DNA of 64,000 nt from Fidelibacterota bacterium (GTDB taxonomy: Bacteria; Fidelibacterota; UBA8477; JABMPR01). The stretch is from the NCBI GenBank assembly GCA_018673925.1, contig JABHBL010000022.1:304006-368005 (forward strand), given 5' to 3'. A program made the translations under genes and the position numbers. Below the pieces are notes generated by a model. The model saw nothing but the letters and a program-made list of their open reading frames with translations, was not told where the DNA came from and searched no databases. The stretch's first letter is position 1. Each line of letters starts with the position of its first letter. Of this stretch, positions 11,023 to 28,486 are shown piece after piece.

Positions 11023-14000
11023 TTAAAATCCCTTGTTGTTTGCGATCAGCATTATTGGTTGCGTTTTACCAATCTGTCGTGAAGGTTTCACCTTATCAAG
11101 GAACTCTATATGCTTGACTGTCAGAGAGATGGCCCCAAAGTCCTCCTCTACAAGGCCGCGTAAAAGATAGGGACGTGCATTGCTGAGCATGCGACAAAAC
11201 TTCCGATACACTTCAGGGAAAAACACGGTTTCGTAGATGGCTGTGGTATCCTCAAAGCTAATGAACTCCATGGGCTCATCATTCTTTGTGTGAACTACTT
11301 TCCCCGTAATGAGCCAGCCAATAACGGGAATCTCCTTCCCAACATACTTCCTAAGATCGCAGGCCCGTACATAAGCCAGATGCTGCAGCAGCTTCGCATA
11401 TAGACTCAAAGGGTGGCGTGAGATAAGAAAACCCAGGACATCAGCTTCATGAATGAGCATTGTTTTTTCAGAATATGCTCCTGTGTCAGGGATGTAGTAG
11501 CTGTCACGTTCGTTTAGATCCAACAGAGACGCTGGTTTATCCCGTCGTTGTTGGCTGGCTCTGGCCTGATACAGCTGCCACATGAGTCCGGGTCGGGCTT
11601 CTATACCCTCTACACCGTCAAAAGAACCTGCTTTGATGAGAATACGTACATCAGATTGATCCAACTCAGGCATACGTCTCAAGAAACTCTCAAATGAGCG
11701 AAAACGGCCATTTGTCTCCCGCTCAGCAACGATGTACTCCAGTGCGGTTCGTTTGATTCCCTTCAGTTGCATAAACCCTATCTGCACCCAGTCATTCAGA
11801 CCAGTATGTCGTATCTCTGAGTTATTGATACTGGGGAGCAGGACTTTCAAACCAAGACGACGCGCCTCCGAGTAATAGCCAAAAGTAGAGTAGTATCCAC
11901 CCAGATTGGTCATGACGGAGGCGATAAACTCCGCCGGATAGTGAGCTTTCAGATAGGCTGACTTGAATGAGACCAAAGCATATGAGGCAGAATGGGGCTT
12001 ACAAAAGGAATACCCTGAAAAGGACATGATCATTTCCCAGAGGGTTTCGATGATGCTATCTTCTACCCCATTCTCACGTGCTCCATTAACAAATTTCTCA
12101 CAATAATCACGGAGCTTAGCCTCTTTGTGTTTCTTGGACATGACCTTGCGCAATTCGTTGCCTTCATCGGCATCGAAACCGGCCAGACGCATAGCAACTC
12201 GCGTGACATCTTCCTGGTAAACCATTATCCCATAGGTCTCTTTGAGGGTTTCATCAAGTAAGGGGTGAAGTGGATCATAGTCACCACCATGGAGACGGCG
12301 GACAAACTCTCTGATCCATTTGTTGGCTGCCGGTCGGATAATACTGGAGGCAATGACCAGGTTTTCATAGTCACCCGTTTGCATCTTACTCAGCAGTTGA
12401 CGAGTAGCCGGGGACTCTACATAGAAACAGCCCATGGTGCGGGCAGTACGGATGAGCTCCTGGGTTCGTAAATCTTCCAGGGGGTTTAGTTTCCAATATG
12501 GGATATCCACACCATAATGCTCATGTACATCGGCCAGAATATCCCGAATGACAGCCAGAGAGCGATTTCCCAGGAGATCAATCTTGATCAGCCCAAAGTC
12601 CTCTGCCTGATCTTTCTCCCACTGGATGATCTGAACGCCTTTGGGAGCACGCTGAATCGGTACATAGCTACGGATTTCATGGGGTGTCAGGACAACTCCC
12701 CCGGGATGGACGCTCAGGTGTCTGGGAAATCCAGCAAGGTAGAAGCCATTACGGATTATCTCTGGCCAGGGGTCCTTGAGATCAAGATCGCTGAGCAAGG
12801 GATTGGTGGCTAGCTCCTCAAATGGGTCACTGACATACCATAAATGGGACAGACGCTTGGTTACAATACCTATCTCACTCTCAGTCAGTCCATATACCTT
12901 AGCTACTTCTCGAATAGCAGCCCGCGCCTTGAAGGTCACATGGTTACAGATCATGGCTGAATGGGAGTCACCGTAGGTATCAAAGGTATACTGCAAAATC
13001 TCGTCTCGAGTATCCCAGGGGAAATCCACATCAATATCTGGCGGGTCCTTGCGCCCGGGAGACAGGAAGCGTTCAAAGAAGAGATTGTGGCGGATGGGAT
13101 CGACATGGGTGATTTTCAATGTATAGGCGACAATACTGGCTGCAGCACTCCCCCGTCCACATGTGATGGGTGATTGCTTGACGATATCCTGAACTGTGAG
13201 GAAGTAATTAGAGAAGCGTTTCTCTTTAACAGTCTTCAACTCATGCTCAATGCGGTCTCGGATACGATCTGTCATATTGCCATAGCGCTCCTGAGCACCC
13301 AGATAGACACGATTTTTTAGTTCCTGGTAATCCCTGCTATCATTGGAGTCAGGAAAAATGAAGTTGTCCAGCGGTGGTCTCCACTGGCATTTTGCAGCAA
13401 TTTCCATGGTACGATCCAGGGCCTCCTCTGCAAAGGGCAGTACATCGAGCGTTTCTGCCGGACTATGGAGATAATTATCAGTGGGAATGAGTTCTTCTTC
13501 AGGCAAGCGTGACAGTTTGGTGTTCAGATTGATGGCGCGCATAATGCGATGGAGCTGATGTCCCCGAGGTGAGCCCATGTATGCAGGGATGTTAGCCACA
13601 CATGGAAAACCTTTCTCACGAGCCCAGTGGTACAAGCTGTAACTGCCTGATTTCAGGGAGACATACACATCCTCGGACTGGTATGCCTCCAGTAAATCAC
13701 GGCTCTGGGTCAGCATGACCAATCCTTCCAACCGTCCAGTGAGATGTTTGAGCAGATCGAAGCTTTCTTCAGCATCATGGCGCTGGCTGATCAGGCGACA
13801 AAGGTTGGAATAGCCTGTGATGTTTTTGACCAGCAGAACAGCCTTGCGCTTCTGCGCATCATCTAATGTTGCCCCAACGATCATATCCAGACCACGCTCT
13901 AGGGCTGTCTGATAAAGGAAGATCATGCCATAGAGATTATTGGTATCAGCAATGGCAAATTGGGTATAGCCCTTCTTGATCATGAAATCGCATAGATGCT

Positions 14001-14058
14001 TTGGGGAAAGGGTTCCCCTGAGTAAAGAGTAATGGCTATGGACTTCGAGAGGGATCAT
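11023..14058 (-). CDS. dnaE2: DNA polymerase III alpha subunit, DnaE2/ImuC type
   Basis: 1011 aa; PHP domain EVHSHYSLLRG; catalytic PDIDVDFPWDTRDE; VHPGGVVLTP; located in a lexA-linked operon with an ImuB-like protein. Confidence 0.9.
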   Translation of the reverse strand: MIPLEVHSHYSLLRGTLSPKHLCDFMIKKGYTQFAIADTNNLYGMIFLYQTALERGLDMIVGATLDDAQKRKAVLLVKNITGYSNLCRLISQRHDAEESFDLLKHLTGRLEGLVMLTQSRDLLEAYQSEDVYVSLKSGSYSLYHWAREKGFPCVANIPAYMGSPRGHQLHRIMRAINLNTKLSRLPEEELIPTDNYLHSPAETLDVLPFAEEALDRTMEIAAKCQWRPPLDNFIFPDSNDSRDYQELKNRVYLGAQERYGNMTDRIRDRIEHELKTVKEKRFSNYFLTVQDIVKQSPITCGRGSAAASIVAYTLKITHVDPIRHNLFFERFLSPGRKDPPDIDVDFPWDTRDEILQYTFDTYGDSHSAMICNHVTFKARAAIREVAKVYGLTESEIGIVTKRLSHLWYVSDPFEELATNPLLSDLDLKDPWPEIIRNGFYLAGFPRHLSVHPGGVVLTPHEIRSYVPIQRAPKGVQIIQWEKDQAEDFGLIKIDLLGNRSLAVIRDILADVHEHYGVDIPYWKLNPLEDLRTQELIRTARTMGCFYVESPATRQLLSKMQTGDYENLVIASSIIRPAANKWIREFVRRLHGGDYDPLHPLLDETLKETYGIMVYQEDVTRVAMRLAGFDADEGNELRKVMSKKHKEAKLRDYCEKFVNGARENGVEDSIIETLWEMIMSFSGYSFCKPHSASYALVSFKSAYLKAHYPAEFIASVMTNLGGYYSTFGYYSEARRLGLKVLLPSINNSEIRHTGLNDWVQIGFMQLKGIKRTALEYIVAERETNGRFRSFESFLRRMPELDQSDVRILIKAGSFDGVEGIEARPGLMWQLYQARASQQRRDKPASLLDLNERDSYYIPDTGAYSEKTMLIHEADVLGFLISRHPLSLYAKLLQHLAYVRACDLRKYVGKEIPVIGWLITGKVVHTKNDEPMEFISFEDTTAIYETVFFPEVYRKFCRMLSNARPYLLRGLVEEDFGAISLTVKHIEFLDKVKPSRQIGKTQPIMLIANNKGF

Positions 14059-14059
14059 T

Positions 14060-14486
14060 TAATTACGAATTACAAATTACGAATTTGATTTTTCATAGTG
14101 CGTTGAATACTGCCAAGGATCTTCAATAGCTCACTGCAATCTTCCAAAAGGGATTTAGACTGAGTTGGACTCAAATACCCGCTATCCTGCATAAGGCGAA
14201 GCCAGTAATGTGTCTCGCGTGCTTCCTTATATGAAATTGATAGCTTTGCCTGGAAATCTTTTTGTGATTGACCACCAATCGCTTCTTCCACATTTGCCCC
14301 GATAGATGTACCACTTTTCACTAGCTGTTTCGAAAGTACATACTCTTGTTTTTCTTTCACCAGGTACTGGTAAAGCTTCACGATTCTCACTGCAAATGCA
14401 TAGCTTTTTGTCTGAACTACATTGTTTTGCTTCATAGTCATTCCTAATTCCTAATTCCTAATTTGTAATTTCTTAGGGGGATCATT
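14060..14486. mobile_element. Putative mobile four-helix-bundle (IVP) cassette with TIRs and 9-bp target duplication
   Basis: GGGATCATT at 14051..14059 and 14478..14486; AATTACAAATTACGAATT (14068..14085) is inverted as AATTACAAATTAGGAATT (14453..14470, rc), 17/18 match; removing the insert restores an ATGA stop/start overlap. Confidence 0.7.
14070..14441 (-). CDS. Four helix bundle protein (23S rRNA intervening-sequence type)
   Basis: 123 aa; LSKQLVKSGTSIGANVEEAIGGQSQKDFQAKLSISYKEARETHYWLRLM signature. Confidence 0.88.
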   Translation of the reverse strand: MTMKQNNVVQTKSYAFAVRIVKLYQYLVKEKQEYVLSKQLVKSGTSIGANVEEAIGGQSQKDFQAKLSISYKEARETHYWLRLMQDSGYLSPTQSKSLLEDCSELLKILGSIQRTMKNQIRNL

Positions 14487-14856
14487 GTAGTCCGCCCTCA
14501 GGATGTGGCCGGATGGATCTCTGGTAGGCAATCAATTTTGGTCGCAAAGCATCATAGCCTCGTTCAAAGCGTTTTACCTCGGCCTCCTGCAGGTACTTGA
14601 GTTCCCTGGCAACCAACAATTGGGCATAAATCTCATTCAGAGCCCCCAGAGCAACATCTACGGCGTGCTGGCGGTCTTTGGTTGTGCGTCTAGAGGTTCC
14701 CTCAGCCAGAATAGCCGGGATACTCACTGCAGCTCGTTGAAGCTGGGCGGTCATACCCATACGTTCTTTATCCGGGAATTGTGAGGTAATGGTATAGATA
14801 TATTTGGCCATAAGTATTGCACGTTGGAAAACATCCAACCCCTTGAAGGTTGCCAT
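14482..14856 (-). CDS. Four helix bundle protein (IVP/Avd-like), mutasome operon member
   Basis: 124 aa; FPDKERMGMTAQLQRAAVSIPAILAEGTSRRTTKDRQHAVDVALGALNEIYAQLLVA; 2 nt after the imuB-like stop. Confidence 0.88.
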   Translation of the reverse strand: MATFKGLDVFQRAILMAKYIYTITSQFPDKERMGMTAQLQRAAVSIPAILAEGTSRRTTKDRQHAVDVALGALNEIYAQLLVARELKYLQEAEVKRFERGYDALRPKLIAYQRSIRPHPEGGLQ

Positions 14857-14858
14857 CG

Positions 14859-16091
14859 CTATGCCCTGACTGGGCTGTGTATGATATCGTTCCCAGTGTT
14901 CAGGACAATGGGCTCTGTGAGTCCAAATCGTATGACAGGGTAACCATGTCGGGCACGCAGCTTGTCCATGGCCTGGTGCAATTCGCCATGTTTGGCAGCA
15001 TCAGGATCAATCACCTTGGAAAAAAGACTGATCTGTTGGGCGGCCTGTATGAGGTTCTCAAAACCGATGGAGAGATAGCGAACCCGAGTACGTCGCTCAA
15101 AGAGTTGCTCAAAGATTTTCTGGGTATGATAGAACATGAGATATTCTTTATGCGTTGCTTCAGGTAGACGCACTGTACGTGTGGCAATCTTGCTGTCGGA
15201 ATAACGGCAAAAGATACGAAAGCTGTTGACCTTCTTGTTCTTCTGGCGCAAGCGGGTGCAGCCATTCTCAATGAGATAATAGACAACTCCCATAATCAAT
15301 TGGTCATCGTTGCTATCCTCACTGAAGGTATACTCCTCTTTTATCTCCAGACGCTGCTCTGGGGGCATTACAGGGCTTAGATCAATACCCAGAGCCTTCT
15401 GATGTAAGGTCAGAGCATTCTTGCCAATGACCAGAATCAACTTATTGATGGGAACTGCTGCCAACATACCAATGCTGGTCAGGTTCAACTCCTCCAGAAG
15501 CACCTGATCGGTGGTGTGACCAATACCTGGCAACATCTTGAGTTCCAGGGGATCCAGGAAGGTGCGCTCGTTGCCAGGTAAAACATCAAAAAGCTCAGCA
15601 TATTGGCGGATGTAGCGTGCTGCCACTGATGAAACCAGCTTGTTTGCAGAAATACCAATACTTGAAGTCAGGCGGAATGATTCACGGATATCCTTATGAA
15701 TACGATAGGCACTGTCCTTAATGCGTCCCAGCAAGCGTGTGGTACCCGTCATATCAATGGCAACCTGTCCATAGCGGATGGGCTCAACATAGGGTGAATA
15801 ACGGGAAACCTGACTGGTAATGGCGTTCATTGCGCGCTGGTAAAGTTCCGGATTGGAATCCACCACGATAAGACGATGCTCCAGTTTGAGTGCCTGTCCA
15901 AGAAGCATGCCCCGATGGATGCCTTCCTGGCGGGCTTCCCTGGAAGCTGATAATATGATTGCCCGTCCTCCAGATCCAGATGCCACCACCACAGGTCGAT
16001 CGCGATAGCTGCTATGGACAGCCTGCTCAACCGTAGCCGGGAATGATGGAACTTCTATGTGTAGAACATCTTTCATGGTCAAAAGTCCCAA
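14859..16091 (-). CDS. Y-family DNA polymerase homolog, catalytically degenerate (ImuB-like)
   Basis: 410 aa; palm/finger/HhH layout (YSPYVEPIRYGQVAIDMTG, LPGIGHTTDQVL); catalytic D/DE positions replaced; QISLF clamp-like motif near C-terminus. Confidence 0.85.
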   Translation of the reverse strand: MGLLTMKDVLHIEVPSFPATVEQAVHSSYRDRPVVVASGSGGRAIILSASREARQEGIHRGMLLGQALKLEHRLIVVDSNPELYQRAMNAITSQVSRYSPYVEPIRYGQVAIDMTGTTRLLGRIKDSAYRIHKDIRESFRLTSSIGISANKLVSSVAARYIRQYAELFDVLPGNERTFLDPLELKMLPGIGHTTDQVLLEELNLTSIGMLAAVPINKLILVIGKNALTLHQKALGIDLSPVMPPEQRLEIKEEYTFSEDSNDDQLIMGVVYYLIENGCTRLRQKNKKVNSFRIFCRYSDSKIATRTVRLPEATHKEYLMFYHTQKIFEQLFERRTRVRYLSIGFENLIQAAQQISLFSKVIDPDAAKHGELHQAMDKLRARHGYPVIRFGLTEPIVLNTGNDIIHSPVRA

Positions 16092-18634: not shown

Positions 18635-21600
18635 CTACCTTAGAACCAGCATTTTGACAGTTTTCGCATAGCCCTTGCCCGTCATGAGTCGGGCAAAGTA
18701 AAGACCACTACTTACCTGTTTGCCCTGGTCATCCAGGCCATTCCAGATAATAGAGTAACTGCCAGGCTGCATTTGAGTTTCCATGAGAGTCCGAACTTCC
18801 TGACCCCTGATATTGTAGACACTAAATCTAATATCCTGATTTAAACCATCCAGAAAGCCTATATCAAAATCAATCGTCGTTGTAGGATTAAAGGGATTGG
18901 GGTAGTTCTGCGACAATTGGCTCTTCTCAGGGACAATAATGGTTCGTGGTCCTAATTTAAAGGAACCCATTGTGGCAGCCCAGGCCCTGACCCGTTCTCC
19001 ATCTGAGACCGACGCCAATTCAACATAATCTCCGGCTATATCCTGGATGTAGATAGCTTGATCATTTGTCAGTGCCGGCATACTCACCAATACAGGTTCA
19101 GCGAGAACCACACCATCTGTGAGCACTTTGTAGCGTGCATCATCGTTAGCACTTAACATTGAATCCAATACTGCAATTCGAGTTGATTTAGCAGCACTGT
19201 TTGAGCTACCCTTTATTTCAAATTGCTCATCAGGACTGCGCGCTAACCATCCAGATCCACGTTTAATCAGGCTAACGGTGACATTGACTGTTATGGTTGT
19301 GTCTCCAACCCAGTTCTCAGCGTATACCTCAAAAGCGTTGAGACCTTCAGTAGAAACTTCTACAACAGCTACATAACTGAAAGTATCAATAGTTGTAAGC
19401 TCAACTTCCAGTCCTGAATGCGTAACCGAAAGTGAATCAATCATACCCAGGCTATCTACAATCATCATTTCATAATATGAGGGGTATGCCCTGTTTTTAT
19501 AAAATGCGACAACAGGTGCTGGAACATCAAAAATATCCAAGGACACCTTGACAGTAATTGTATCCTGGAGGGGATCATTTGTCAGAAGCCGGAATTGACC
19601 ACCATATCCACCTACAGTAAATGCAGCTGGACTGATATTAATAGCAATAACGGCACTACTGTCATATTCAATGGTATCAGCCTCAATTGGCAGACTTATC
19701 CATGCTGGTGCATCCAAAAGTGACCATCGTAAATCAGTCAAACCAAGATTGCTCAGGGTAAAGGATGTGTCAATTTCAGTCAGTCGCGCAATATTAACAG
19801 CGATGCTATCAGTGTTTAACACTGCAAAGGCAGAGGATGTTGTCACATGAAAGGTATCTGCAACAGCTGAAGTATCAGCCTGATCCAATGCACGAACATA
19901 CCACTCTATAATACTGGATGGAAAATCCATCACTGAGACATCAACAGTGATTGACGTGTCCCCAGTTGCAAGCATGGTATCATAGTCAGCACCTTCAAGG
20001 CTGAGTCGATAGGTAACTGGGTTGTCCTCTATATCAAACGCTGTGGTCCAGGAAAATGTCAATAAGAGACTATCACTAGGACTCAATTGGGTTGAATCAG
20101 CTGGCAACAGTAGTGTTACTGGTTCAGGCGCATCATTGACCTGCAGCACTTCAATTACATACTGGGTAGTGTCTGCTTCTCCCAGGTGGTCCCTAACCCG
20201 GACAATAAGTGTGTCTAACCCAACATCTGCATTCAATGGGGTCCATGAAATCATTCCAGTCAGGGAATCAATTTCCGCACTATCTGGATATTGGATCATG
20301 GAGTAGAATAATGAATCTCCACTGATCGTCTCAAGATCCAGATCTGTAGCCGGGAGGATAAAGTTATACAAAGTATCCTCCTGAATACTAGTATCTGCTA
20401 TGGCTAGAAACTCGGGAGGTGAATTTATTACAAATTGGAAGATATCCACACTGGTTGGATTTTGATAGTTATAAGCACTATCAATGGCCATAACTTCGAC
20501 CTGATAATCAATTCGATTATCCAGAGAATCACCTGGCAGAACCACCTGCCAAGAACCATTCTCCATAAATGTAAATTGAGTCATACTATCAGCTTGCCAA
20601 TCCGAGGTGATGTCATTCCACCACAGAGAATCTGACATTCTCTTGATATTTACCCAGACACTATCTACTCCCGAAAGTTCATCGCTGGCAATACCTGTAA
20701 TGGATGAGTCAGCATTCCACTCCCCAATATGGTAAAATGGGTCCAGGTTAAGCGCATTCAGAGGCCGTATCAAATCTGCTACTACGCCCTGTGTGGAAAT
20801 AGTATCAGAAATATTGCCAGCTGAATCAAGACTGCGGACATTGATAAAGAAACTATCGGCGTGTACGAAAGTCCCAAATGTATCAATCATGACCGTATCT
20901 AAAGTGAGGTCATACCAATTGACCTCATCTGCCAGACCAGCTGAGCTACCAATGGAATATTCGTATCTAAGAATATCAGATACTGGATCTGCAAAACCAT
21001 CCCAGGCCGCGGCGAGGGTATCATCAGCATTCACAAAGCCATTCATATAGGTGGCCGATGGAATAAAATGACCCGTATCAGGAGCAGTTTGATCAATGAC
21101 AAATACGGTATCTATACGTGTGCTGGTCGTGGAATTTCCGAATGCATCAATGATATCAACTTCCATGACAATAATTGCACCATCCGAAAAATCTCCAGGG
21201 CTGGCTACAATGCCTTCGATTTCTGCGGCCGTATAGCTTAATTGTCGATCGATGAAGGCTGTGATTTCAGTCGTATCGCCGAGAACAATAAAATTTTCAG
21301 CTTGCCAGGTACTGAGATGGATCCAGCTGTAAACAATACCATCAATCAGCGAGTTATCAGTGTCATCAATAGGTACTGTCATGTCAAGACCAGTACTATA
21401 TGAGTTCCAATATCCTTCAACAACGTTGCTACCCGATGTCGAGTAGGTATCGATGGTTATCTCACCTGGAACCACGCGATCCACAAATAATTCAAAAATA
21501 CTACGATTACCTTGTGTCTCATTCCCAGCATTGTCGCGCAAAGTTACTGTTGTCAGGAATGTGATATCATTATCAAAACCTGCTAAAGTATCTATGCTGG

Positions 21601-24600
21601 TTGAATCCAGGGTTACAATTTGGACCGTATCCAGATCTGTAATACTAATGAGCGTGTCCAGCGTCAACCAGCCAGAGCCCATATCAAATTGAGGAATGAT
21701 ATAGCCTGAGGACAATGTTGGATCATCAGCAATGGGTACATGGATTGTGATGCCTGCGTTTGTTGAATTGAATGCATTCACAACTATATTCCCATTGTAT
21801 GCCATCACCGTATCAACGTCAGCCACAGCGGGTCCAGCAATATCAAGGAATAGTGAGTCAGTGATCATCGATCCGGCAGTTTGATTGCCAGCTCTATCCG
21901 TCATCACAATTCGAGTATAAACATATTCACCATCACTGTTATCATAGTTTGCTAAATTCTGAATATCCACAGCTTCAACAATAATCGTCGTATCTGTATT
22001 CACTGTAAATATGGGAATATTACTCAGCACAAAACTTGGGCTGCCAACTTCAGTAATTTGCATGGTTACATCAGCATAGCCATTTACCATAGTGGAATCA
22101 TCTGGGATGCTCAGAGTCAATGCCAGTGAATCAGAGTTTGCATTCCAGGTGTTTTCTGGAAGGTTTTCACCATAAATGGAATCAAGAACTGCTGTGAAGT
22201 TAGCAGGTGGCGTAACATCAATCTCCAGTAGTGTAAGACTGGTATCATAAACGGTTGCATTCCCAGCTTGATCAAGTACAAATGCCTGGAATTCCAGGAA
22301 TTTGCCACTTCCAAAGTTGGTTAAGTTTACAATTTCAGTCGAATCAATGGTGATTATGTGTGTCGGATCAACAGTTTGAAGGGTATCTATTTTCAGAAAT
22401 GTCTCAAATGGGAATGGAATCACGCGCCCCATACAAAAGACCTCGCCTCCAAGCATGGACAAATCAGTATCATCCAATGGAACGATGATATTGACCTGGT
22501 TATTCTCCAGCATCCAATATCCTGGAGAAATTGTCCCTCCTGAGGTAGTAACAATTCCTGTAGAATTATCAGCATGGGGTATTTGATCTACAACTGTGAC
22601 TGGTTGTCCAACTGGACTACTTGTCGTGTTCCCTGCAACATCAGTGAGGATGGCATCAAATTCAAGCGTTTGAACCGTACCCCAGTCTATCAATGCTTCA
22701 AGGGTATCCCGTGGAACCGAAATAGTGATATCTTCCAGAGTGGTAACGGATACCGGTGACATGACATCCTCCTGGAGATTTACTCCCACGCGCAGCTGGA
22801 GCTCTCCCCCAATAAGGGTATTGTCACCATCCGGTAAATTAATGGTTACCTCGATACTATCATTTGTGAGGTTAAAGTAATTGTCCCGGATAGTACCGCC
22901 TGTAGCCAGCATAGTTTCCAGATCAAATGCACCTGGAGCCGTGTAATCGACAATGAGTGAATAAAGGGGTGTACTTTCAGTCACATTTCCCGCTCTATCA
23001 GTAAGAACTGGCGTAAATCTGAGCGTATCCCCATCGTTGAACAGAAGTGTATTCAGATCAGCTGCTGAAAGATTCATCGTAAGTGTTGAACCGATATCTC
23101 CTTCAACAAGGATTGAATCAAAACCAGATTCGGCAAACGGTGTACCTCCTCCAATTCTGGATCTAAGATCAAAGAGGCCCCCAATCATACTGCTGTCATT
23201 TGGAATCTCTGCAGTAATAGTATACTGGGTGTTTGTTGCATTCCAACGTGCTGTATTGTACTCAATGCCACCACTGGCAGCATAAGTCCCTTCAGTAATC
23301 AAATCTGGATAGGTAACATCTATCTGTAAAGTTGTTTCACTCGTATTGCCTAAAGTTTGATTGCCAGGCATGTCTGTAATCACACCGCGAATTTGAATGG
23401 AATCACCGATGGCAAAATTTGGCAATGCTTCCACTTGTGCTGCACTCAATGTGATTGTAATAGGATCTGCTGTTGAAATCGTAACCGTGCCACCAATGTT
23501 CACAAATGGATTTTCATCAACACGCCCCTGTAGTCGAGCACTTCCACTGATGAGCGATCCATCAAAAGCCGAAATGGGCAAGGTTACTCGAATAGAATCT
23601 GTGGTTGCATTGTAATAACCTGAAACGACAGGATCACCTACAACTACTATATCTCCAGTATCTATAGTATCTGGGACCACACCATCAATGTGCAGATCAA
23701 AATCAGAAAGTATGGTTCCTTCAGTAGGAATTGCCAAATCAACTGGATTTCCAACAATATTGGCCAACGTACCAGTCCCGCTTACTCTAATTTCAAAGAC
23801 AGATAATACGTCCACCGAATCACCTGGCAACACTTCATACGAGAAGGTCGCCTGAGATGTATTGTTTATGGAACCAGCAGCTATGCCAACAACACGGTTG
23901 GTATCACCGGTTTCCAGGCTTACAAGCAGTGAATCTGTATCCAGGCTAACACTCTCTTCGAAAGTGACGATGATATCAATCGCATCCCCGATCTTATAGA
24001 ACGCATCTGAAGTGCTTGTGGTGGTGATATTGAGAATGACCGGATTATCACCATAGAGGTTAATACTCCGTACATCAAGATTTGCACCATCTGGAATACT
24101 GAGATCGGCAAGATTACCTGCCAGATCATATACTGCATCGGAAGTTGTAGTGACACTATCAATACTCAGTGGAGCTGCATTATCCTCAGCTGCTACCATA
24201 AAATTAAAGGAAAGTGTATCTGATTCATCGATGCTGTTTGTATCCAGAACACGAGCTGAATTTGTATTCAAATACGTGTAAAGTGTTGCACCACTCATGT
24301 TCACAGGCTCTGAAAAATTCACTCTCACATTAACATTATCATTGATGCCATAGTTGCCATCAGCGTTGAGAGACGTAATATTGTCAATAACTGGAATATC
24401 CCGATCCACATAAAATGTATCTGTACTTGCAGCAGAGCTTAATTTCTCGTTGCCTGCATAATCCTCAATAAGAGCTGTGATGTGATAAACTTTATCGTCA
24501 TCAAAGGACGTATGAGACTCGACTTCACTTTGGTTCAATGGAATAATCACCGCATCTCCGATGTCTCCAGATCCAATGGTGTAGGAACTTCCCAAAGTTT

Positions 24601-27600
24601 GTCTGCCTGATATTGAGGCAAAATAGCCCTGAACATAAACGCGACCTCCAACCAGAGATTGATCATCTCCAATATCAAAGGCGATGTTCATTAGGGTATC
24701 CGAGCCATTCCAATAACCTGAGGTAGGATTAGTACCATTAATTGTAATAGCGCCCACGGTAAAATCTGCAGGGGCATTACCATCAACAATAATAGCTGCA
24801 TTATCAGCCAGGTTTGAATCGGCGGGAAGGGTGGTTAGCACAACTGCATTACCACCAATATCAATAATATCACCACCGTCCACTCCAATACCTGTGACTG
24901 TTAAATCAAGACTGGAATCACCTGCAGCTACTGTTAATGTGGCTGTGGCCTCTCCACTGGATATAACTGTCGCATCTATGATCTGATCAACACCATCACC
25001 TGTATCCAGTGTAATCTGCAATTCACTACCTGTTGAGAAACTCACATTCTCACTAAAGCGAACCGTAATGTCTAGACTCTCACCGATACCAAGTGTATCA
25101 GCTGCGGTTTCGGCATAGATACTCTGGATAAAAGGAACTTCACCATCTACTGTCAGAGCGCTGTTGTCTGACAGGTTTTCACCTGTTGGTATGCTTGATA
25201 AATCTGCAGTATTACCTGCAGAATCTTGTAATGTCGCTGCTGATGTTGATACAGAGTTTACATCTAAATCTGTACTATACTCATCTGCTGAAACTGTATA
25301 AGACATAATGACTGAGTCAGTCAATGCAAAGCTGGTCAGAGTTATTACAGCATCATCTACAACATCTCCTGTCTCCAGCTCGGTGCGTAATGTACCACCC
25401 CCAACTAACTTGACATCTTCATTGAAAGTCAATGTGATGGTTGCATTATCGCCAATACCAAGGGTATCAACCGAGGGGTCTGAAAATATGGATGTTATCG
25501 TAGGTGATAGCTGATCAATATCGAAACTACTGGCACTCTCTGTACCGGAAGTACTGTTTCCAGCATTATCTGTGAGAACTGCAGTGAAATGCAATTCCGC
25601 ACCATTAGCAAAACTTGATATACCTTCAACTGCACTGGAATCAAGGGTTACATCCAGTGGACTTCCATAGGCCACCAGTTCTACTGGATCACCTATATCC
25701 TCAGGTGTATTACTCCCTATATAGCCTTGAAGTTGAACGGTTCCACCATCCAATGAAGGATCATTCTTGATGGGAACACTCACAGAGATACCACTGTTAT
25801 CCTGATTCCAATATCCAGCAACTACATTGGGACCGGTAATCGTTACTGCACCTACTGTAAAAGCTATCGGAGCTATTCCATCTACCTTGATAGCTGCATT
25901 ATCAGCCAGATTGGAATCTGCTGGAAGGGTGAAAATAGAACTATTTCCACCAGCATCAACCAGACTACCAGCATTCATCTCTAAACTTATTACTGTAAGA
26001 TCCAAACTGGAATCACCAACAGATACTGTATAACTGGCCATCATCTCAGTTCCGCTAATACTTGTCGCAGAAATGACTTGGTCGGTGTCCCCGGTCTCTA
26101 GAGTTATATTTAATGAATCACCACCAGAAAAACTCACATTTTCATTGAATCGAACTGTAATATCAACAATCTCACCCACACCTGCGGTATCGGTTGCGGT
26201 ACTTGCATAAATACTTTGGATAACGGGAGCTGCTCCATCGATAACCAGGTTACTATTATCAACCAAATTTTCACCTGGAGGCAATGTGGATAAATCAGCC
26301 TCATTTCCAGCCGAATCCTGCAGGGTTGCTCCCGAGGTTGACACTAAAATTACGTCCAAATCTGCGCTGGATTCACCTGCAGATACTTCGTAGGAAAAAT
26401 TTACCACATCTGTGAGTGAAAAACTACTCAACGTAGCAACCGCATCAGCAACTAGTTCACCAGTCTCAAGTGTCGTTCTTAATGTACCAGCACCTATTAA
26501 TTTTACCTCCTCATTAAAAGTCAAAGTGATAGTTGCCGAATTCCCAATTCCCAGCGTATCGTCAGACGGACTTGATGTAATACCTGAAATGGTGGGAGAA
26601 GTTTGATCTATTGTGTAACTGATGGCACTGGGACCACCCTGTTTACTATTGCCTGCATTATCTGTGATGATAGCAGAAATGTGAAATATTTTGCTATCCG
26701 AAAACCCTGGTATCCCCTCAACAAAACTAGAATCAAGCAACACATCAAGAGTATCTCCAACAGTTTCTAGAGTCACAGCATCGCCAATTGACTCAGCAGT
26801 ATTCGTTCCTGTATAACCCTGCAATTGAATGGTACCCCCATCAAGGGAAGGATCATTATTAACGGGGACTCGAACAGATATACCACTATTATCCTGATTC
26901 CAATATTGAGGAACCACATTGGGACCGGTAATTGTAAATGGACCGACAGTAAATGAAGCCGGATATTCACCGTCAATTACTAGTTCATCTTCACCATTAG
27001 CAACATCAAGATCAGTCACGCCAGTAAGGGTTAATCTATTAGTCACACTATTTCCACCATCATCCTTCAACGTGGCACTGTCTGTCAATGACAGGCTGTC
27101 CACCGATAAATCGGTGGATTGATCAGTTTCAGAAATTGTATAAGTGGCAGTCACAGAGTTCCCACTAGGATTACTCACATCAACCGGGGTTGTAACACCA
27201 TTTAAATAGAGTTTGAGCGATCCAGAACCAGCAAGTTCTACCTCATCAGTAAAATTTATAGTGATGTCGATTTGGTCCCCAATTCCCAGTATTCCACTAG
27301 GCTGTGAAGAAGAAAAGGATTTAATGAGAGGTGCAATTCCATCAATGTGGAGATTACTATTACTGGCTAAAGGGATTGAGCCAAGTCGGCTCACATTTGC
27401 ATCATTACCTGCAAGGTCTCGGAGCGATCCAAATGCGATCAAAACTGAATCCACATCCAAATCCCCAATACTATCACCTTCAACAACTGTGTAAGTCCCA
27501 GACGGAGAGTCATCATTGGAAAAACTTCCAATACTCACATCTGTGGGGACACCTGTTAGATCAATATCAATCTGACCATCCAGTGTAACTGCTTCATCAA

Positions 27601-28486
27601 ATTCGATGCTAATTGATGGTGTCGCATCAATACCAAAGGTTCCAAAAACCGGAGTAGAGGTAAATCCATCGATTGTAGGAGCAGTTTGATCAACGTTAAG
27701 CGTTGAGGAACTAGCACTTACAATTGTTGAATTTCCAGCATAGTCCGTAATAATGGAAGCAATTTTTAATACCTCACCATCGGTAAAACCGCCAATGCTT
27801 TCTATTCGTGTATTACTTACAGTAACTAATTGATCGTCATTTGGATATATGTTTAATGTAGTAGGAGAGCTGATCGTATCATCTATTGTGGCTGTTGCGC
27901 CAAAATAACCCAGAATTTGAATGGTGCCATCTTCTAAGGAAGCATCTGCATCTATATCGGTATAAACCTTTATGCCAGTACTGGTTGAGTTCCAATACCC
28001 AGCTTTTATCACTGACCCAGTTGTAAGTACCGAATCTGGGCTAATATCTGCAGGTGCAGTTTCATCAAATTGAAATGGTGGATCTAAAGCCAGTAGAGTT
28101 AACGGTGCATTGTTAGATTGCTTAAACTGTACTTTAAATTGAAGAGTGTTACCTGCAGAAGTGAATCCAGATAATGCTTGCAGTTCAGCATCAGTATAAG
28201 TTACGGTTATGGATGAATCAGTACTAGTTGAAAAATCAACGGCCAACAATGTTGATGACTGGAAACCATTTGAGAATAACTGAATTTGATATTTCCCAAT
28301 CAATGTATCTCCTGGCACAGTAAAACTAAAGGTTCCACCCGTATTGCCAGCATTCCAGCGGTCGCTCACAACGGTTCCGCCCGTTGGGGCAAAAGTCTGT
28401 CCCATGACAAGAGAACCCATTAATAAGAAGAAAATGAGACCTCGCTCAAATATTCTAACAACGCCAGTTTTTGCTGAATTCTTCAT
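18635..28486 (-). CDS. Giant Ig-like repeat surface protein with C-terminal T9SS-type/FlgD-like sorting domain
   Basis: 3283 aa; signal peptide; repeating [Y]WN..GI...LxGGxxxLQGY and GI(G)D..TITLTFNExVxL modules; cadherin-like stretch; C-terminus SQNYPNPFNPTTTIDFDIG...SSGLYFARLMTGKGYAKTVKMLVLR. Confidence 0.9.
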   Translation of the reverse strand: MKNSAKTGVVRIFERGLIFFLLMGSLVMGQTFAPTGGTVVSDRWNAGNTGGTFSFTVPGDTLIGKYQIQLFSNGFQSSTLLAVDFSTSTDSSITVTYTDAELQALSGFTSAGNTLQFKVQFKQSNNAPLTLLALDPPFQFDETAPADISPDSVLTTGSVIKAGYWNSTSTGIKVYTDIDADASLEDGTIQILGYFGATATIDDTISSPTTLNIYPNDDQLVTVSNTRIESIGGFTDGEVLKIASIITDYAGNSTIVSASSSTLNVDQTAPTIDGFTSTPVFGTFGIDATPSISIEFDEAVTLDGQIDIDLTGVPTDVSIGSFSNDDSPSGTYTVVEGDSIGDLDVDSVLIAFGSLRDLAGNDANVSRLGSIPLASNSNLHIDGIAPLIKSFSSSQPSGILGIGDQIDITINFTDEVELAGSGSLKLYLNGVTTPVDVSNPSGNSVTATYTISETDQSTDLSVDSLSLTDSATLKDDGGNSVTNRLTLTGVTDLDVANGEDELVIDGEYPASFTVGPFTITGPNVVPQYWNQDNSGISVRVPVNNDPSLDGGTIQLQGYTGTNTAESIGDAVTLETVGDTLDVLLDSSFVEGIPGFSDSKIFHISAIITDNAGNSKQGGPSAISYTIDQTSPTISGITSSPSDDTLGIGNSATITLTFNEEVKLIGAGTLRTTLETGELVADAVATLSSFSLTDVVNFSYEVSAGESSADLDVILVSTSGATLQDSAGNEADLSTLPPGENLVDNSNLVIDGAAPVIQSIYASTATDTAGVGEIVDITVRFNENVSFSGGDSLNITLETGDTDQVISATSISGTEMMASYTVSVGDSSLDLTVISLEMNAGSLVDAGGNSSIFTLPADSNLADNAAIKVDGIAPIAFTVGAVTITGPNVVAGYWNQDNSGISVSVPIKNDPSLDGGTVQLQGYIGSNTPEDIGDPVELVAYGSPLDVTLDSSAVEGISSFANGAELHFTAVLTDNAGNSTSGTESASSFDIDQLSPTITSIFSDPSVDTLGIGDNATITLTFNEDVKLVGGGTLRTELETGDVVDDAVITLTSFALTDSVIMSYTVSADEYSTDLDVNSVSTSAATLQDSAGNTADLSSIPTGENLSDNSALTVDGEVPFIQSIYAETAADTLGIGESLDITVRFSENVSFSTGSELQITLDTGDGVDQIIDATVISSGEATATLTVAAGDSSLDLTVTGIGVDGGDIIDIGGNAVVLTTLPADSNLADNAAIIVDGNAPADFTVGAITINGTNPTSGYWNGSDTLMNIAFDIGDDQSLVGGRVYVQGYFASISGRQTLGSSYTIGSGDIGDAVIIPLNQSEVESHTSFDDDKVYHITALIEDYAGNEKLSSAASTDTFYVDRDIPVIDNITSLNADGNYGINDNVNVRVNFSEPVNMSGATLYTYLNTNSARVLDTNSIDESDTLSFNFMVAAEDNAAPLSIDSVTTTSDAVYDLAGNLADLSIPDGANLDVRSINLYGDNPVILNITTTSTSDAFYKIGDAIDIIVTFEESVSLDTDSLLVSLETGDTNRVVGIAAGSINNTSQATFSYEVLPGDSVDVLSVFEIRVSGTGTLANIVGNPVDLAIPTEGTILSDFDLHIDGVVPDTIDTGDIVVVGDPVVSGYYNATTDSIRVTLPISAFDGSLISGSARLQGRVDENPFVNIGGTVTISTADPITITLSAAQVEALPNFAIGDSIQIRGVITDMPGNQTLGNTSETTLQIDVTYPDLITEGTYAASGGIEYNTARWNATNTQYTITAEIPNDSSMIGGLFDLRSRIGGGTPFAESGFDSILVEGDIGSTLTMNLSAADLNTLLFNDGDTLRFTPVLTDRAGNVTESTPLYSLIVDYTAPGAFDLETMLATGGTIRDNYFNLTNDSIEVTINLPDGDNTLIGGELQLRVGVNLQEDVMSPVSVTTLEDITISVPRDTLEALIDWGTVQTLEFDAILTDVAGNTTSSPVGQPVTVVDQIPHADNSTGIVTTSGGTISPGYWMLENNQVNIIVPLDDTDLSMLGGEVFCMGRVIPFPFETFLKIDTLQTVDPTHIITIDSTEIVNLTNFGSGKFLEFQAFVLDQAGNATVYDTSLTLLEIDVTPPANFTAVLDSIYGENLPENTWNANSDSLALTLSIPDDSTMVNGYADVTMQITEVGSPSFVLSNIPIFTVNTDTTIIVEAVDIQNLANYDNSDGEYVYTRIVMTDRAGNQTAGSMITDSLFLDIAGPAVADVDTVMAYNGNIVVNAFNSTNAGITIHVPIADDPTLSSGYIIPQFDMGSGWLTLDTLISITDLDTVQIVTLDSTSIDTLAGFDNDITFLTTVTLRDNAGNETQGNRSIFELFVDRVVPGEITIDTYSTSGSNVVEGYWNSYSTGLDMTVPIDDTDNSLIDGIVYSWIHLSTWQAENFIVLGDTTEITAFIDRQLSYTAAEIEGIVASPGDFSDGAIIVMEVDIIDAFGNSTTSTRIDTVFVIDQTAPDTGHFIPSATYMNGFVNADDTLAAAWDGFADPVSDILRYEYSIGSSAGLADEVNWYDLTLDTVMIDTFGTFVHADSFFINVRSLDSAGNISDTISTQGVVADLIRPLNALNLDPFYHIGEWNADSSITGIASDELSGVDSVWVNIKRMSDSLWWNDITSDWQADSMTQFTFMENGSWQVVLPGDSLDNRIDYQVEVMAIDSAYNYQNPTSVDIFQFVINSPPEFLAIADTSIQEDTLYNFILPATDLDLETISGDSLFYSMIQYPDSAEIDSLTGMISWTPLNADVGLDTLIVRVRDHLGEADTTQYVIEVLQVNDAPEPVTLLLPADSTQLSPSDSLLLTFSWTTAFDIEDNPVTYRLSLEGADYDTMLATGDTSITVDVSVMDFPSSIIEWYVRALDQADTSAVADTFHVTTSSAFAVLNTDSIAVNIARLTEIDTSFTLSNLGLTDLRWSLLDAPAWISLPIEADTIEYDSSAVIAINISPAAFTVGGYGGQFRLLTNDPLQDTITVKVSLDIFDVPAPVVAFYKNRAYPSYYEMMIVDSLGMIDSLSVTHSGLEVELTTIDTFSYVAVVEVSTEGLNAFEVYAENWVGDTTITVNVTVSLIKRGSGWLARSPDEQFEIKGSSNSAAKSTRIAVLDSMLSANDDARYKVLTDGVVLAEPVLVSMPALTNDQAIYIQDIAGDYVELASVSDGERVRAWAATMGSFKLGPRTIIVPEKSQLSQNYPNPFNPTTTIDFDIGFLDGLNQDIRFSVYNIRGQEVRTLMETQMQPGSYSIIWNGLDDQGKQVSSGLYFARLMTGKGYAKTVKMLVLR

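Follow-up and report, generated by a model that had tools for sequence, protein, structure and literature searches.

A four-helix-bundle gene between inverted heptad arrays: a probable instance of a widespread type of minimal mobile cassette

Results

The imuB–dnaE2 locus and its cassette

In the window, by which we mean the whole stretch of 64,000 nucleotides analysed here, two small genes of the same protein family lie between an imuB-like and a dnaE2-like polymerase gene (Table 1). The second of these, gene B, scores well above the curated profile cut-offs of the PF05635/TIGR02436 four-helix-bundle (4HB) family, both for the Pfam profile PF05635 (E = 6e-29, 100.7 bits, cut-off 33.8) and for the NCBIfam profile TIGR02436 (2.5e-31, 108.1 bits, cut-off 24). 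A preliminary description of this DNA had proposed that a second four-helix-bundle protein was encoded here and that it was akin to the proteins of 23S rRNA intervening sequences (IVSs), and membership of this family bears out both statements.

Table 1 Features of the imuB–dnaE2 locus in the window
Feature	Position	Strand	Remarks
dnaE2-like polymerase gene	11023..14058	-	Next gene downstream of the cassette; assigned from its length, sequence and context
Direct repeat, copy 1 (GGGATCATT)	14051..14059		Possible target duplication; contains the dnaE2 start codon
3' heptad arm	14060..14085	-	Sense-strand unit AATTCGT/AATTTGT; holds the final codons and stop of gene B
Gene B	14070..14441	-	123-aa 4HB protein, PF05635/TIGR02436; nearest solved structure 2RLD
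5' heptad arm	about 14440..14471	-	Unit AATTAGG, three times, after one AATTACA
Direct repeat, copy 2 (GGGATCATT)	14478..14486		Overlaps the gene A stop
Gene A	14482..14856	-	124-aa 4HB protein, nearest solved structure 2GSC; heptads lost at the window
imuB-like Y-family polymerase gene	14859..16091	-	IMS domains; upstream of gene A

The same description had reported inverted ends of 17/18 bp, and these are exact at the sites given (AATTACAAATTACGAATT, 14068-14085, against AATTACAAATTAGGAATT, 14453-14470 on the minus strand), but both are better read as tandem repeats with a unit of 7 bp: in the sense direction the start array consists of AATTACA, three successive AATTAGG units and AATG, while the end array consists of AATTCGT, AATTTGT, AATTCGT and AATTAA. 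The 5' array reaches the start of gene B, for which its AGG motifs could provide a ribosome-binding site, and the last codons and stop of the gene do fall inside the opposite arm, as had been stated. When the cassette is folded in silico, the 3' arm is predicted to pair with the 5' arm through 5-6 base pairs plus one mismatch per heptad. No transposase was found among the open reading frames and translations of the cassette, no reverse transcriptase among the open reading frames around it, and no match to it in E. coli genomes. The nonanucleotide direct repeats noted earlier at the two edges are present as described, whereas the heptad arrays, and the cassette nature of gene A itself, had escaped the first reading. 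Elsewhere in the window (18635-28486), an open reading frame of 3283 aa, which contains numerous Ig-like segments resembling one another and closes with a sorting-type C terminus, has the look of a giant surface protein.

Occupied and empty sites in related genomes

Empty orthologous imuB/dnaE2 sites, which the preliminary description had suggested looking for, were found in four relatives of the same genus (G018, G009, G013 and G004). These have the order imuB-A-dnaE2 with a gene A approximately 95-97% identical to that of the window, and gene B is absent from all four; it was therefore inserted, in keeping with the earlier proposal of a non-autonomous cassette that encodes no transposase. 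The detail of the junction differs from what had been predicted, namely an ATGA stop/start overlap: the relatives instead read CCAATGAY-ATGATCCC, with the TGA of gene A ending one base ahead of the dnaE2 ATG. The left flank at the window, CAATGATCCCCCTAAG, resembles dnaE2 codons 1-6 of the relatives (ATGATCCCCCTCGAAG), and a real duplication of approximately 9-16 bp is therefore favoured, although partial coincidence is possible because the ATGAT tandem is already present in three of the four empty relatives. The 9-bp repeat may accordingly represent one real duplication or be partly coincidental, having arisen either by target duplication and a subsequent 5-bp change or from 5 pre-existing bp and a further 4 bp.

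Gene A is itself a cassette of this kind, older and without its former heptads at the window, since it is flanked by inverted heptads in G012, G011 and G015 (of the GTTAGGG/GTTAGGA/GTTAGAA type) and is missing, together with gene B, from the locus in G014. A B-like cassette, 89% identical over residues 2-118, lies directly between imuB and dnaE2 in G002, where A is lacking; this would be either a separate event at that junction of the operon or the one insertion with A lost afterwards. Genes resembling RAYT/Y1 transposases are also seen at the imuB-dnaE2 junction in five relatives of the genus (L044, L047, L049, L052 and L057), their position relative to A being variable; a RAYT-like gene separates imuB from A in G013 and G004.

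A period of seven around 4HB genes

Protein similarity was the only criterion by which loci with 4HB genes were chosen; 29 came from relative genomes and 80 from named genomes of many phyla. Their 150-bp flanks were scored for self-match at each offset from 2 to 20, with a threshold of at least 9 at offset 7. Period-7 runs were present in 65% of 55 flanks and 61% of 156 flanks, as opposed to 0.9% of 216 and of 977 control segments drawn from the same loci, and the only raised offsets were 7 and its double, 14. Around the Y1/RAYT genes of the same genomes no heptads were detected (0 of 40 flanks), and 40 of 178 4HB genes are without them. The unit is nearly always 7 bp long, a few cassettes having one of 8 bp. 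Cassettes with an 8-bp unit (GAGTTTTT) are located between hypF and hypC at four loci (L182, L183, L185 and L191), where the C terminus of the 4HB protein reads NYLRK or nearly so, as does that of hypF in empty relatives; possibly these endings are captured target sequence.

Heptad-flanked 4HB genes also occur on finished, named plasmids of Nostoc, Calothrix, Euhalothece, Planktothrix, Pseudanabaena, Bernardetia and Treponema, and the arrangement is therefore no assembly artefact. The gene is enclosed by (AATTCGC)n and (GCGAATT)n on a plasmid of Nostoc flagelliforme, by (AATTCGT)4 and (ACGAATT)4 in Nostoc sp. C052, by GTAGGGA and TCCCTAC in Nostoc edaphicum and by GGGTGTA and TACACCC in Calothrix, while the Euhalothece cassette has a long ACTGGTC array and that of Bernardetia a GATTAGT array. 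Plasmid relatives of the Xanthomonas XCC0516 protein have heptads other than GGGAATC.

The window's own genome (G000) contains AATTACG arrays of up to nine units (C63:74185-74251, C26:6969-7000 and C88:70846-70891), and its PF05635 matches are confined to contigs C34 and C27. At two of its loci (L005 and L008) heptad arrays have no adjacent 4HB gene, and these are possible scars of lost cassettes. A truncated third 4HB gene (C27:477-641, L011), preceded by CAATTAG heptads, adjoins an open reading frame resembling Rpn/PD-(D/E)XK transposases.

Coupling between the two ends, and between spelling and protein

The 5' unit corresponds to the reverse complement of the 3' unit, at a mean distance of 1.27 of 7 positions compared with 2.36 when loci are shuffled, and the predicted arm-to-arm duplex energy is -43.6 kcal/mol against about -32 kcal/mol for mismatched loci, a difference that holds outside the B clade. 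Such complementarity fits inverted repeats in DNA as well as a stem in RNA. The arms are inverted, their sequence being shared within protein clades only, and the spelling of the heptad tracks the protein clade across phyla. In the set of 108 loci whose arrays are strong, pairs of proteins with at least 60% identity, mostly from different genera or phyla, have units that differ at approximately 1 of 7 positions, whereas the units of proteins less than 50% identical differ at approximately 2.6-3. The Mantel correlation of spelling with protein identity is r = -0.62, and r = -0.28 outside the B clade, with none of 1000 permutations as low in either case. We infer that this coupling is the trace to be expected from a protein that recognises the unit; common descent could partly contribute. 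In the protein tree, which includes gene A (row L012) and leaves gene B of the window outside, phyla are mixed on supported branches, an observation whose weight is limited by the short alignments and the metagenome bins.

Copies, sites and target duplication

The single-contig chromosome of G036 holds two copies (L155 and L156) that are 97% identical over 727 bp at unrelated sites, their homology stopping about at the heptads, and four copies in G025 (L162-L165) are 97-99% identical. PF05635 matches number 16 in the one 2.8-Mb chromosome of G036 and nine in G025. The mobility that had been claimed from a single locus is borne out by such near-identical copies within related genomes, which show that the class has moved recently, by copying within genomes. 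Both heptad arms of both G036 copies contain a 24-bp perfect palindrome, AGCGGCAGGACGTGTCCTGCCGCT. One convergent gene pair carries a 94%-identical cassette in opposite orientations in G036 (L024) and G047 (L026), as if the cassette could invert through its arms. In Nostoc sp. C052 a cassette is present on plasmid pC052_A, and the 96.7%-identical segment of pC052_D holds in its place approximately 200 bp that look like an HNH-type open reading frame. Further gene-end sites in the genus are filled in some species and empty in others; sites common within a genus are mostly vertically inherited, and the copies are not all independent.

The site of L156 is empty in G026, where a single heptad-like GAGAGTT is found, and has an array of another spelling in G056; in L156 itself the stop codons of both neighbours are supplied by the heptad, which is one of several such cases. 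Among the 70 named loci with both neighbours known, the two neighbours are co-directional with the 4HB gene in 55, with a median spacing of 35 nt after the stop of the upstream gene and 34 nt before the start of the following one. These figures show a preference for the sense orientation between co-directional genes. A 4HB cassette also lies between cas2 and cas1, in opposite orientation to both, on pANACY.01 of Anabaena cylindrica (L310) and in Nostoc sp. TCL26-01 (L311), and at L014 (G039) a B-like cassette sits within the 3' end of a coding region, approximately 50 bp of that gene's end being repeated in diverged form on its far side.

The target duplication that the preliminary description had read from the 9-bp repeat stands for the window at most. 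Flanking direct repeats outside the arrays show no excess in 125 related loci, and no target duplication is present at the two insertions with informative empty relatives, L156 and L313 of Nostoc, the latter of which replaces approximately 200 bp. A 9-bp target duplication is therefore not a feature of the class.

Discussion

Taken together, the locus is probably best understood as a minimal mobile cassette of a widespread class, in which a single PF05635 4HB gene is carried between inverted arrays of a short tandem unit. As to how such a cassette might move, we favour a model in which host functions insert a folded single strand with the protein bound to it. In this tentative model, the 4HB protein, which is a pentamer in solved relatives, would recognise the heptad spelling of its own cassette, and the two arms would fold back in single-stranded DNA or RNA to give, around the gene, a stem whose pitch is 7 nt. 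At the level of the mRNA, the stem could make the cassette tolerable inside operons, as in the 23S IVSs with their RNase III-cut stems, while the stem with its bound protein, in DNA or RNA, could serve as the substrate for insertion at gene ends. The insertion machinery would be supplied in trans, probably by host repair or else by a recombinase, and insertion would often cost some target DNA without a fixed duplication. Solo heptad arrays may be the remnants of decayed cassettes. A bolder statement, which we consider possible but would not yet call probable, is that one 4HB protein reads a clade-specific heptad code at both ends and, with neither a conventional transposase nor a reverse transcriptase, directs the insertion of its own gene at gene ends, the 23S rRNA IVSs and many unexplained heptamer repeats being the members and scars of this process.

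Other enzymes could be envisaged. Single-strand Y1/HUH transposases of the RAYT family might recognise the fold-back and leave no duplication, and the numbers of 4HB and Y1 genes do correlate (rho = 0.66), the same imuB-dnaE2 junction contains RAYT-like genes in five relatives and a palindrome lies in both arms of L155 and L156. However, DDE transposases correlate just as strongly as Y1 at the genus level (0.74 for each), as might reflect general mobile-element load, RAYT genes lack heptads in all 40 flanks and no common tetranucleotide target was established; because of the equal DDE correlation and the missing heptads, we regard this as only a minor rival and unlikely. Reverse transcription in trans, whereby the 4HB protein, like its homologue Avd, would hand a hairpin RNA to a reverse transcriptase for target-primed synthesis, seems if anything a little less probable. 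It draws on the relationship of PF05635 to Avd of diversity-generating retroelements (PMC10053308), a below-cut-off match of gene A to NF033474, the sense-oriented insertions within transcription units and two RVT_1 open reading frames in the window's own genome, by their look of group II intron type. It is disfavoured by the absence of any RVT_1 match from G036 and G025, despite their many cassettes and near-identical copies, and over 60 genomes the numbers of 4HB genes and reverse transcriptases are uncorrelated (rho = 0.05).

The inverted ends and 9-bp direct repeat at the window would by themselves suggest a MITE-like DNA element moved by a cut-and-paste transposase in trans with a 9-bp duplication. 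Against this, there is no excess of duplications in the 125 loci, L156 and L313 were inserted without one, with loss of target DNA at L313, and end sequences differ wholly between clades under a constant 7-bp period, which makes such an element distinctly improbable. That there is no mobile class at all, and that ordinary small operon genes attract heptad microsatellites and are gained and lost through vertical inheritance and deletion, would accommodate the arrays found without a 4HB gene and the many sites shared vertically in the genus. It is very hard to reconcile with near-identical copies at unrelated sites of one genome whose homology ends about at the arrays, with a plasmid pair of 96.7% identity in which just one partner bears the cassette, and with arms that are inverted and complementary, and we give it hardly any credence.

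The most interesting part of the finding is the heptad code. To our knowledge, PF05635/TIGR02436 proteins, although widely distributed and often present in many copies, have no known function; as cargo of mobile cassettes with a protein-specific repeat code, their scattered distribution would be explained. The class would also offer an origin for 23S rRNA IVSs, and may be where the abundant 7-bp repeats found close to stop codons in several phyla come from. The heptad code and the 4HB protein constitute a directly testable system of protein-nucleic acid recognition; should the cassette move without any conventional recombinase, this would be a novel mode of DNA movement.

Comparison with known systems

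Among open-licence papers we found none that links heptads, 4HB genes and insertion between protein genes outside rRNA, but the cassettes share individual features with several families of elements. Like MITEs and REP/RAYT elements, they are small, have inverted ends and carry no transposase. Unlike these, their ends are arrays with a clade-specific spelling, their cargo is a 4HB gene and a target duplication of constant length, as in MITEs, is not seen, the one 9-bp case being at the window; nor does the window cassette have the Y1 transposase gene and REP palindromes of REP/RAYT systems, whose RAYT genes are in turn without heptads. With diversity-generating retroelements the cassettes share a four-helix-bundle protein related to Avd, as the weak NF033474 match of gene A also indicates (PMC10053308), but no reverse transcriptase, template or variable repeat was seen at the window locus, and some cassette-rich genomes have no RVT_1 match.

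The closest resemblance is to the 23S IVSs (S23p/IVP) of Leptospira and Coxiella, in which a PF05635 gene is likewise the sole cargo of an element of approximately 430 nt with pairing ends and a sporadic, horizontal distribution. The terminal complementarity typical of IVSs is found in the cassettes as a predicted stem around the reading frame with a 7-nt pitch, matched duplexes having lower energies than mismatched ones. In contrast to the IVSs, the window cassette sits between protein genes, gene A and dnaE2, outside any 23S rRNA gene, and its reading frame is intact and follows AGG heptads that form a candidate ribosome-binding site, with arrays at both ends that in the class have many spellings. 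In Coxiella, three tandem heptamers, GACAGAT, directly precede the S23p open reading frame, their number differing from strain to strain, and the first of them is where RNase III cleaves (PMC4990558). These heptamers match the 5' anatomy of the cassettes and therefore suggest that the 23S IVSs are rRNA-resident members of the class, that is, cassettes that have landed in rRNA.

Heptamer repeats near stop codons, of no known origin, have moreover been reported in Xanthomonas (GGGAATC) and Nostoc (GGGGAYT) (PMC4692102), and intergenic TAACTGA heptamers in Beggiatoaceae (PMC4679880). Together with the cyanobacterial STRRs, these resemble the cassette arms in being 7-bp tandem units near stops between aligned genes, some of them in inverted pairs, and differ in that the available portions of both sources describe them without a link to a 4HB gene (PMC4692102, PMC4679880). 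We predict that such repeats, those of Xanthomonas and Beggiatoaceae included, may be cassette remnants.
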